A model generated the notes under the pieces. That model was given only the letters and a program-made list of their open reading frames with translations, made no database searches and was not told where the DNA came from. A stretch of DNA of 64,000 nt from the NCBI GenBank assembly GCA_944391505.1, contig CALXTV010000002.1:1-64000 (forward strand), written 5' to 3'. Positions 4,088 to 53,699 of the stretch are shown here, piece by piece; positions within the stretch are counted from its first letter, which is position 1, and every line of letters starts with the position of its first letter. This stretch comes from an uncultured Alphaproteobacteria bacterium. GTDB lineage: Bacteria; Pseudomonadota; Alphaproteobacteria; RF32; CAG-239. A program made the translations under genes and the position numbers.

Positions 4088-5251
4088 TTACGCTTGCGGC
4101 TTTGGCTGCGCTTTGAGGTCTATGACCGTAATTTCGGAGGGCGCGAACAGGCGCATGGCCGGTCCCCAATAACCGGCACCGTTGGAAACATAAAGCTTGA
4201 CCCCGTTAACTTCATAGAGCCCGGAAAGATATTTGTTGGCATATTTGGCAAAAATATGAAACGGAAAAATCTGGCCGCCGTGCGTGTGGCCGGAAAGCTG
4301 GAGATCAACATTTTCCTTGTTCAGATAGTCGACGAAATCCGGCGTGTGCGAAAGCAAAATCCGATAGCTTCCCTCCCGGGCACCCTTGAATGCCCGCAGG
4401 AAATTGACGTTCCAGACATCGCTGTTGTTGGCAATATGCGCATCGGGAATGCCTGCAATATAAACATTGTGGTCGGGAATACGGACGCCGTGATTGAACA
4501 TAATCAGGAAGCCCATATTCTTAAACTTGAACTGCCACGGAATCAGCCCCTGATAAAATTCGTGATTGCCAAAAGTGTACAAAGGCGGATATTTGGCTTC
4601 CAGACGTTCCAGCTCGGCCATGTGCGGTTTGACGGCATCAACTTTGTCATCGGCAATATCACCGACCAGGGCTATGACATCCGGATCAAGCGCATTAACC
4701 CGATCAACCAGCTTGCGGACTTTTTCAACCGGCGTGGTGCGGTTGATATGCGTGTCATTAATCATTACCAGGCGCATATCCTTGCTGACATTGGGGCTGG
4801 CCAGTTCAAACTTTTTGAGCTCCGGTTCTTTGGCGCCGCCGTAAACGGCCATGCCGACAAAAACGGCCGTTAAAAGCAAAACAATAAAATTGGCCTTGTC
4901 CAGCAGATTGATGTTTTTGGGGTGGAGTTTCCAGTTTTCGCCGAAGATTTTGCGATAAACCGCATAAAGGGCGAACCAGACGACATCGCGGAACAAAAGC
5001 ATGGAAAAGAGAATGAACGCGGCGCCGAACATCAGGTAGAGGATTTTGGAAATACCGGCAAAAGCCTCGGGCGTAAAAATACCCGCTTCCTGAATAAGGT
5101 AGGATAACAGCGGGCCAAACCAACTGACGACAACCAACACTCCGGCAATTATTTTATAGCGGCGGCGGATATCCGAATAGCCGACCAATGTTTTGACGGT
5201 AATTGCCGAACAGGCAACAGCAATAATTGCGGAAGCTATGGCGAAGTACAT
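4088..5251 (-). CDS. Membrane-anchored metallophosphoesterase, YkuE-like
   Basis: The N-terminal ~150 residues hold about four hydrophobic segments. The rest is a calcineurin-like phosphoesterase with the metal-binding motifs in order: NDTHIN (D-x-H), LVGDIAD (GD), FGNHEF (GNHE), LLSHTPDF (H) and SGHTHGGQ (GHTH). This layout fits the YkuE/YaeI branch, often linked to lipid or UDP-sugar phosphoester hydrolysis, but the substrate cannot be read from sequence. GGAG lies 5 bases before the ATG. It is in line between the DUF4167 gene (18-base gap) and clpB; the clpB promoter starts right after its end. Confidence 0.88.
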   Translation of the reverse strand: MYFAIASAIIAVACSAITVKTLVGYSDIRRRYKIIAGVLVVVSWFGPLLSYLIQEAGIFTPEAFAGISKILYLMFGAAFILFSMLLFRDVVWFALYAVYRKIFGENWKLHPKNINLLDKANFIVLLLTAVFVGMAVYGGAKEPELKKFELASPNVSKDMRLVMINDTHINRTTPVEKVRKLVDRVNALDPDVIALVGDIADDKVDAVKPHMAELERLEAKYPPLYTFGNHEFYQGLIPWQFKFKNMGFLIMFNHGVRIPDHNVYIAGIPDAHIANNSDVWNVNFLRAFKGAREGSYRILLSHTPDFVDYLNKENVDLQLSGHTHGGQIFPFHIFAKYANKYLSGLYEVNGVKLYVSNGAGYWGPAMRLFAPSEITVIDLKAQPKPQA

Positions 5252-38238: not shown

Positions 38239-38905
38239 AACCCACTGGCCTAGCCGGTGGTTCTTCTTTAAGGGTGTAACCCTAATGGTGCCAGCGAACG
38301 CCTTAAGGGCGTATGACGGTCTGACGGGGCGAAGATTACTTGCTACCCGTAAACGGATCAAAATCCATAGTTAACTGACTTTGCTCCGCGTCTTCTTTAA
38401 GTTGATTTCGTATATACTCAGTAATTTTTTGAGTATTCTTCCCTGTGGTATCAACATAGTACCCTCGACACCAAAATTCTCTGTTGCGATATCGAAATTT
38501 TGCATTTCCCCACCTTTCGTATATTGCGAGACTACTTTTACCTTTGAGATATCCCATGACGGAACTTACGGAATACTTTGGGGGTATCTCCAGTAACATA
38601 TGAACATGGTCAGAACAGACCTCTGCCTCAAGAATACCTACTCCTTTCCATCGGCATAGTTCCCTAAGTATTGATCCGATTTCCAGACGCCGCCCTCCAT
38701 AAAACGCCTTTCTGCGATATTTCGGTGCGAATACAACATGATATTTACAATTCCATGTTGTGTGTGCTATCGTATGTGTGTTCATAAAAAAACTCCTTTG
38801 CTTTTCTTAAGACTGTTACCAGACCGTCTCTAACATAATAGCAAAGGAGTTTTTATGCGCAAAGCTATAAGCTCTTTGGAACTACCGGCCTAGCCGGTAG
38901 TTTTC
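38239..38905. mobile_element. IS200-type insertion sequence
   Basis: An element of about 660 bp with one transposase gene and no tnpB. Subterminal hairpins flank it: ACTGGC-CTA-GCCGGT at the left and the perfect AACTACCGGC-CTA-GCCGGTAGTT (38880-38902) at the right, sharing the CTA loop. It lies between the M23 peptidase and pgk without breaking either. Exact ends are not fixed, as this family makes no target duplication. Confidence 0.85.
38336..38785 (-). CDS. tnpA: IS200/IS605-family TnpA transposase
   Basis: A 149-residue HUH (Y1) single-strand transposase. Seen: the N-terminal WNCKYHVVFAPKYRRK, the HUH motif SDHVHMLLEIPP, and the catalytic Tyr region GYYVDTTGKNTQKITEYIRN. It is full length. 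AAAGGAG precedes the ATG, but this site lies in an inverted repeat (38788-38801 with 38841-38854) that can pair and hide it. IS200 is known to limit transposase translation in that way. Confidence 0.95.
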   Translation of the reverse strand: MNTHTIAHTTWNCKYHVVFAPKYRRKAFYGGRRLEIGSILRELCRWKGVGILEAEVCSDHVHMLLEIPPKYSVSSVMGYLKGKSSLAIYERWGNAKFRYRNREFWCRGYYVDTTGKNTQKITEYIRNQLKEDAEQSQLTMDFDPFTGSK

Positions 38906-53028: not shown

Positions 53029-53345
53029 TCAAGTCCGAATATGACAAGCTGTTGCCAGCTTGACCGCAGCACTGACTGCGGCACGAATCTTTGTTGAAGC
53101 GCGTTGCTTTCTGCGTGCATATCGTGAGACCGTGCCTTGTGTTTGTAGATATTCGGATCAAGTCCGAATATGACAAGCTGTTGCCAGCTTGACAAGGGGA
53201 CGCCCTTGAGCGCAAGCTGTTGCCAGCTTGACCGCATCAATGGCTGCGATGCGAATCTTTGTTGAAGCGCGTTGCTTTCTGCGTGCATATCGTGAGGCCG
53301 TGCCTTGTGTCTTTTGGATGTCCGGGACAAGCCCGAACATGACGG
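53029..53345. repeat. Compound dispersed repeat
   Basis: Two copies of the ~59-base core seen at 28299 lie here (from about 53084 and 53252). They are mixed with two copies of ATTCGGATCAAGTCCGAAT, several of CTGTTGCCAGCTTGAC, one CTTGACAAGGGGACGCCCTT block and a final TCCGGGACAAGCCCGAACAT. The blocks contain small inverted repeats. Frames over it are not genes. Confidence 0.85.
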
Positions 53346-53386: not shown

Positions 53387-53414
53387 TTGCAAATTAGTAA
53401 TCAGCCTTTATAAT
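53387..53414 (+). promoter_or_regulatory. Strong promoter of the structured RNA
   Basis: TTGCAA and a perfect TATAAT are 16 bases apart, placing the transcript start near 53420. Confidence 0.7.
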
Positions 53415-53419
53415 CGTCT

Positions 53420-53694
53420 TTGCTATCAGCGATGGTTAGGCTGACGGCGGAGTGTGGAAACTCCTCGTAGGAAACCAATTAACCTCCTTTATGGAGGATG
53501 ACGCGAAATAAGCCGCTTTTGCGGACGAATAAGTGTACTGTCTCTATACAGTTTCCAACTCCTCGTCCTCGTTTTGAGGACGGTTTTGTTTTTAACAAAA
53601 CATGAGGGAGTTGAACATCATGGCAACCCAAAACAACGAAATTATCAAAATCAGTCTGGTCTGAAAAAATAAAGCCCTTCTTACGAGGGGCTTT
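53420..53694 (+). ncRNA. Candidate structured RNA, class unknown
   Basis: About 275 nt between a strong promoter and a terminator. Successive stems are GGTTA/TAACC enclosing GGAGT/ACTCC, then CCTCC/GGAGG, CCGC/GCGG and ACTGT/ACAGT. A long-range CAACTCC/GGAGTTG (53556-53562 with 53607-53613) encloses CGTCCTC/GAGGACG and GTTTTGTT/AACAAAAC. It ends next to a 14-codon frame whose ribosome site lies in the closing strand. It does not match tmRNA, RNase P, SRP or 6S features I know. Confidence 0.6.
53620..53664 (+). CDS. 14-residue micro-ORF on the structured RNA
   Basis: ATG nine bases after GAGGGAG opens MATQNNEIIKISLV and then stops just before the terminator. An in-frame ATG at 53602 would give 20 residues. 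The GGAG can be masked by CAACTCC upstream. It could be a leader or regulated micro-peptide. Confidence 0.4.
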   Translation: MATQNNEIIKISLV

Positions 53695-53699
53695 AATTT
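53671..53699. terminator. Terminator shared by the RNA and bactofilin gene
   Basis: AAAGCCCTTC-TTAC-GAGGGGCTTT (one G-T pair) then AATTTTTT on the plus strand; an A/T-rich run also follows on the minus strand. Confidence 0.8.

Follow-up and report, generated by a model that had tools for sequence, protein, structure and literature searches.

A candidate riboswitch-like leader RNA of Alphaproteobacteria, met at a copy with a truncated XRE-type gene

Results

The locus between smpB and bactofilin

The window analysed here is a stretch of 64,000 nucleotides from an uncultured Alphaproteobacteria bacterium (contig CALXTV010000002.1, positions 1 to 64,000). Between smpB and a convergent bactofilin gene, it contains a compact unit on the forward strand. 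The unit consists of a promoter, a folded leader RNA, a ribosome site, a short reading frame and terminator-like hairpins (Table 1).

The sigma-70-like promoter has 10 of the 12 consensus matches in a promoter scan. The first-pass annotation had proposed a TATAAT promoter followed by a multi-hairpin RNA, and both are borne out. For the RNA from 53420 to 53698, the folding energy is -94.5 kcal/mol; shuffled sequences average -66.5 (z = -5.37), and none of 200 was as low.

The unit has two terminator-like hairpins, one of them internal and 5' of the frame. The annotation had described a single terminator. It overlooked the internal one, and the last hairpin is not exclusive to the unit. Relatives that lack the unit retain an equivalent hairpin, so we assign it also to the oppositely oriented bactofilin gene.

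Upstream of the promoter, positions 53045-53336 hold a dispersed repeat of about 130 bp (AAGCTGTTGCCAGCTTGAC...GCGCGTTGCTTTCTGCGTGCATATCGTGAG), with many copies in the genome and the genus. This repeat also adjoins some leader units elsewhere (L047, L048, L051).

Table 1. Positions of the unit's parts in the window.
Feature	Position	Strand	Evidence or remark
Sigma-70-like promoter: TTGCAA (53387-53392), 16-nt spacer, TATAAT (53409-53414)	53387-53414	+	Same position in paralogues: TTGCAAAATAG / TTGAAAATTAG ... TATAAT
Conserved leader RNA core	53421-53587	+	Model R1, 164.6 bits; model R2, 112.4 bits, E 1.9e-21; covariation
P1 hairpin, 53422-53429 with 53441-53448	53422-53448	+	Helix 1: compensatory changes in 7 of 8 pairs
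P2 hairpin, GGAG (53449-53452) / CTCC (53461-53464)	53449-53464	+	Variants read by eye, per sequence
Pseudoknot PK1, P2 loop side with strand B2	53455-53462 with 53550-53557	+	Helix 2: covariation
P3 long-range helix, 53466-53473 with 53541-53548	53466-53548	+	Helix 3: compensatory changes in 7 of 8 pairs
P4 hairpin, CCTCC (53483-53487) / GGAGG (53493-53497); PK2 joins its 3' strand, P4', to B1	53483-53497	+	Helix 4: covariation
P5 (53501-53504/53533-53536) and P6 (53513-53516/53521-53524), conserved internal loop AUAAG / CGAAUAA	53501-53536	+	
Strand B1 (AACTCCTC)	53557-53564	+	Pairs with P4' (PK2) or with the ribosome site; overlaps the 5' arm of the terminator
Internal intrinsic-terminator-like hairpin P7 (53563-53583) with TTTTGTTTTT	53563-53593	+	Terminator scan; helix 7 compensatory
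Ribosome site GGGAGTTG, complementary to B1	53606-53613	+	Fold and covariation
14-codon relic MATQNNEIIKI/SLV (MATQNNEIIKISLV) of a 75-codon XRE-type HTH gene	53620-53664	+	Comparison with the L038 ORF, MATKNNEIIKI...TVKISLV
Presumed deletion junction in TCAAAATCAG	53645-53654	+	Comparison with paralogue L038
Terminator hairpin, common to the convergent bactofilin gene	53670-53695	+	Equivalent hairpin in relatives without the unit

The short frame is what remains of an XRE-type gene

A 14-codon frame with a ribosome site had been annotated, and both are present. Nevertheless, the frame is not a gene in its own right. The paralogue L038 reads MATKNNEIIKIRNGI...YGKTVKISLV, and the window frame joins the two ends of such a gene. 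Relative to this paralogue, 183 bp (61 codons) are missing in frame, with TCAAAATCAG at the junction. The loss apparently occurred by deletion between two short direct TCAAAATCAG repeats.

In the nearest relative (G002), a gene of this kind still has its end intact (AKAYGKAVKITLI, then a stop), at the contig end on the bactofilin side. The smpB-bactofilin interval of G003, G004 and G006 has no unit, and the terminator beside bactofilin is still there. The unit was therefore gained or lost at this site, and its gene was broken recently. Judging by the sequence, the window copy probably no longer yields a functional protein.

The micro-peptide had been taken as the controlled product. This idea is contradicted by the 14 other copies in the genome, which precede intact small XRE-type genes. 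A functional leader peptide is ruled out, since these 14 paralogues have full-length genes and the window frame corresponds to their two ends. Likewise, the arrangement is not that of a leader-peptide attenuator: the frame sits 3' of the structure and is a truncated gene. An upstream frame starting with ATGGTTAGG in the P1 loop was also rejected, as its start codon is not conserved.

Copies of the unit in the genome

A DNA search found 15 copies of the unit in the genome, with the same promoter and a leader of about 170 nt. Behind the leader, 14 of them have a ribosome site and then an intact XRE-type HTH ORF of roughly 75-110 codons. A protein profile search of the genome ranked exactly these 14 genes on top (E < 1e-22; the next, 5e-13). 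All 14 close XRE paralogues thus lie directly behind a leader. In Pfam, some of the XRE-type proteins score above the cut-off (HTH_3, HTH_31), and several fall below it or have no match.

The similarity among paralogous units begins just 5' of the -35 element and ends at the end of the gene. For instance, L046 and L049 share 95% identity over 466 bp, and their flanks are unrelated. By these boundaries, the units behave as dispersed cassettes.

Scattered copies of this kind, and the empty smpB-bactofilin site in three relatives, are also what a selfish or mobile cassette would leave. Its promoter, RNA, small gene and terminator would travel together, and the RNA would serve copying or insertion rather than gene control. 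However, no transposase and no target duplication was seen. Viral contigs gave no match to the core pattern, which also counts against a phage origin. Furthermore, the RNA is kept in families where unrelated single genes follow it. We regard this explanation as very unlikely.

At L050, one of the genome's own copies (4250-4406; G000:C1:187213-187371), the 5' half of the leader is retained and everything after CTG is replaced by other sequence; the XRE gene is kept. Leaders also occur close together, in two or three copies (L084, 1255-1909; L096, 1501-1926; L185; L160; L105, 1501-2128). Some of these loci have no intervening gene and are reminiscent of tandem riboswitches.

Conserved structure and covariation

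We examined a nested model of 45 pairs (P1, PK1 and P3-P7) on 32 copies. Its cells were paired in 93% of cases, and 34 of the 45 pairs had compensatory changes. Doubly changed cells numbered 229, compared with 62 in shuffles that take no account of relatedness among the sequences (0 of 500 reached the observed number) and 12-36 in slid controls. The conserved core consists of AUAAG/CGAAUAA around P6, together with CUG...CAG.

The P2 hairpin varies as GGAG/CUCC, GGUG/CACC, GGGG/CCCC, GAGG/CCUC and GGGA/UCCC. These variants were read by eye in each sequence and stand outside the tool count, because between subclasses the MAFFT alignment is shifted by one position in the P2 loop. The first candidate pairing for B1 was with A1 (CGGAG/CUCCG). 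It was dropped, because the variation favours the local P2 hairpin and the pairing of P4' with B1.

This second pseudoknot, PK2, was missing from the pairing scheme of the first-pass annotation. It was also absent from the model that aligned the sequences, and was first spotted by eye in distant members. Its own-pairing score exceeds all 500 shuffles, which ignore relatedness. RNAalifold recovered it unprompted from an independent MAFFT alignment of 86 sequences (columns 63-149: GC 36, AU 18, UA 9, CG 4). Dozens of differing complementary helices occur, such as GGTGGAG/CTCCACC and the long perfect versions of distant members (GGTTGGAGG/CCTCCAACC, GGCCAGAAG/CTTCTGGCC and CGGTTGGAAG/CTTCCAACCG). 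With so many different helices, common ancestry alone is an unlikely cause of the complementarity.

An ordinary unstructured 5' region would owe its hairpins to chance or to the similarity of paralogues. Sequence common to paralogues does inflate apparent conservation. Nevertheless, the folding energy (z = -5.4), an excess of compensatory changes well beyond those of shuffles and slid controls, and a covarying pseudoknot not used in model building refute this reading, which we consider extremely improbable.

The window copy itself is a poor representative. No other of the 32 aligned copies has so few paired cells (35 of 45), to which an alignment shift in P4 and P7 contributes. P3 is paired at 6 of 8 positions, with two mismatches, and PK2 has only 5 bp. 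This copy may be decaying after the loss of its gene.

Strand B1 and the ribosome site

The pairing of CAACTCC with GGAGTTG over the ribosome site, proposed in the annotation, holds. The first (53556-53562) is the exact complement of the second (53607-53613), the two pair in the minimum free energy fold, and they covary across relatives. In the genome of the window, B1 reads AACUCC. Distant members have changed both strands jointly: CUAACUCC/GGAGUUAG in L265, AACCUCC/GGAGGUU in L260, ACCUCCA/UGGAGGU in L257, GAACUCC/GGAGUUC in L268 and GCUUCC/GGAAGC in L254. The own-pairing score of B1 with the ribosome site is 14.77, compared with 13.57 in shuffles that ignore relatedness (0 of 1000 as high). 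The extended complementarity is not universal, and several rumen members with AGGAGAAAA sites have only 4-5 pairs.

B1 covaries with both P4' and the ribosome site. PK2 and the ribosome-site pairing most often have 4 nt in common. In the majority of members PK2 also overlaps the P7 arm located by folding, 2 nt being the commonest overlap; the automatic parse of PK2 and P7 behind these overlap counts is rough, and some rows are wrong. Since they share nucleotides of the B1 region, PK2, the ribosome-site pairing and P7 are at least partly exclusive. The leader thus has two computational hallmarks of riboswitches, a conserved and covarying 5' domain and mutually exclusive pairings in the expression platform.

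Distribution and downstream genes

The covariance check suggested in the annotation was directed above all at the interval between smpB and bactofilin. The covariation is strong, but the conservation is not tied to that site. Model R1 detects the RNA in 124 of the 152 genomes of the family, and the highest copy number in a single genome is at least 18. The broader model R2 detects it in 24 of 385 sampled Alphaproteobacteria genomes, spread over many families. In a phylum sample of 299 genomes, R2 gave no additional carriers outside Alphaproteobacteria. In a core-pattern scan of named genomes, nearly all of the matches listed belong to Alphaproteobacteria that are uncultured and come from gut or rumen.

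A gene with a ribosome site lies behind the RNA in 139 of 156 copies. In the genus of the window, XRE genes follow nearly all copies read. In other families the genes differ. Prepilin-like genes lie behind the RNA at L254, L266, L111 and L153, and an outer-membrane beta-barrel gene at L261 (OMP_b-brl, E 6e-12). Genes for BspA-type LRR proteins (LRR_5, weak match) and secreted proteins are also found. L255 has a larger XRE regulator (HTH_3, E 2e-15), and L112 a formate/nitrite transporter (E 5e-64). In large-genome Alphaproteobacteria of different families, L109 and L270 have similar Rha-like HTH genes (Phage_pRha, weak). The XRE regulators and the prepilin-like, OMP, LRR_5 and formate-transporter genes share no common metabolic theme.

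The prepilin-like genes of several families (L153, 108-299; L254; L266) carry the motif GRSMxEMxGxLxIxG. The only one searched in Pfam, L254, had no match.

Discussion

What the leader may control

The leader probably decides the expression of the next gene. Two other readings compete at this point. The RNA could be a small RNA in its own right, about 165 nt long with its end at P7, that acts in trans, with the downstream gene read only by leakage. Its own promoter and internal terminator would suit such a role, as would the two or three tandem leaders with no gene between them at some loci (L084, L096, L185) and the persistence of the RNA in the window copy despite gene loss. On the other hand, a gene with a ribosome site stands behind 139 of 156 copies and all 14 XRE paralogues, and B1 covaries with that downstream site. 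We judge a trans-acting RNA unlikely.

Slightly less probable still is autogenous control, in which the small XRE protein would feed back by binding either the leader of its own gene or the conserved -35 region. All 14 intact copies in the genome precede XRE proteins, and the -35 region is unusually conserved. In other families, however, prepilin-like, OMP_b-brl, LRR_5 and formate-transporter genes lie behind the same RNA core, which stays constant while the XRE proteins diverge down to 16-35% identity. Because the downstream genes vary among families, a purely autogenous XRE circuit is disfavoured and a general cis-acting signal element is favoured.

A possible switch

Computation shows that the structure is conserved, that PK1, PK2 and the B1:ribosome-site pairing covary, that a terminator is present, that genes are associated with the leader and that the window copy has undergone a deletion. 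From here we infer that the leader switches, in which direction it does so, and that there is a signal. The RNA would be transcribed from its own promoter, and its body would fold with P1-P6, PK1 and PK2, leaving B1 as the switch strand. With the body folded, P4' would hold B1 in PK2. The ribosome site would then be free and the first bases of P7 occupied, and the gene would be on. With the body not so folded, P7 would form, transcription would stop and the gene would be off. In transcripts of the unfolded state that read through, B1 would mask the ribosome site, which would also keep the gene off. The stabiliser of the body could be a ligand, an ion, temperature or a protein.

Comparison with known RNAs

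The first-pass annotation recognised no known class, and this agrees with our searches. With Rfam 15, the window copy matched no family at gathering or permissive thresholds, including tmRNA, 6S and RNase P-like RNAs. Twelve diverse and distant loci gave nothing at the gathering threshold except a tRNA. ARAGORN likewise found no tmRNA in the window, in agreement with the absence of an Rfam tmRNA match. In the literature, the supplementary motif lists of surveys lying outside this coverage, we found no description of this RNA.

A separate Rfam match in the window is STnc490, at 38336-38902 on the minus strand (60.9 bits; gathering threshold, 56). It lies just upstream of an ORF (38336-38785) resembling IS200/IS605-type TnpA. 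Rather than an enterobacterial sRNA, it probably represents sequence on the 5' side of an IS200-like element.

The leader resembles riboswitches with combined terminator and ribosome-site platforms. It has a conserved 5' leader, pseudoknots, alternative strand pairing, an internal terminator, an anti-ribosome-site strand and several copies per genome. It differs from known riboswitches in having no Rfam riboswitch match, and its targets are XRE regulators and surface-protein genes instead of one pathway.

The c-di-GMP riboswitches (GEMM classes) precede genes for prepilin-like proteins, surface proteins and regulators, with many copies per genome. Our leader is alike in target profile and copy number, but its fold and sequence are different (no Rfam match). 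c-di-GMP would fit the targets as a ligand. Nevertheless, a carrier with 4 copies (G508) has no detectable GGDEF domain, which the other 9 carriers searched have, and c-di-GMP is therefore unlikely as a universal ligand. The cspA-type thermosensing leaders place one conserved leader before a multi-copy family of small nucleic-acid-binding proteins. This arrangement is similar; however, sequence and fold are unrelated, and cold-shock genes are not what it precedes elsewhere.

Fremin and Bhatt 2021 (PMC8040213) reported 100 structured-RNA candidates from the human microbiome within 5 kb of HTH-XRE genes. Their main text names no alphaproteobacterial motif. Some of their candidates may overlap with the leader RNA, which would then have been detected earlier without being described. 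Brewer et al. 2021 (PMC8632094) described the pseudoknotted odc1 uORF motif of alpha-proteobacteria, where an 11 aa uORF belongs to the mechanism and ornithine decarboxylase is the product of the gene. The alphaproteobacterial host, a pseudoknot and a short ORF are common to both RNAs, but here the short ORF is a relic of deletion.

Significance

Taken on the structure and its variation, the window RNA is probably a copy of a new structured, riboswitch-like class of cis-regulatory leaders in Alphaproteobacteria, with B1 as the switch strand. A wider reading is offered more tentatively and falls somewhat short of an even chance. A new and widespread alphaproteobacterial riboswitch class would form a double-pseudoknot aptamer round the AUAAG/CGAAUAA loop. 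It would sense a cellular signal and control small XRE regulators by the dozen as well as surface-protein genes, and the leader-XRE unit would have spread in gut lineages as a switchable cassette.

The covariation-tested model supplies direct mutations for testing. The leader adds an uncatalogued and strongly supported class of structured RNA, abundant in uncultured gut and rumen Alphaproteobacteria and present across the class. Its target genes suggest that surface and regulatory functions in these bacteria respond to a signal so far unrecognised.
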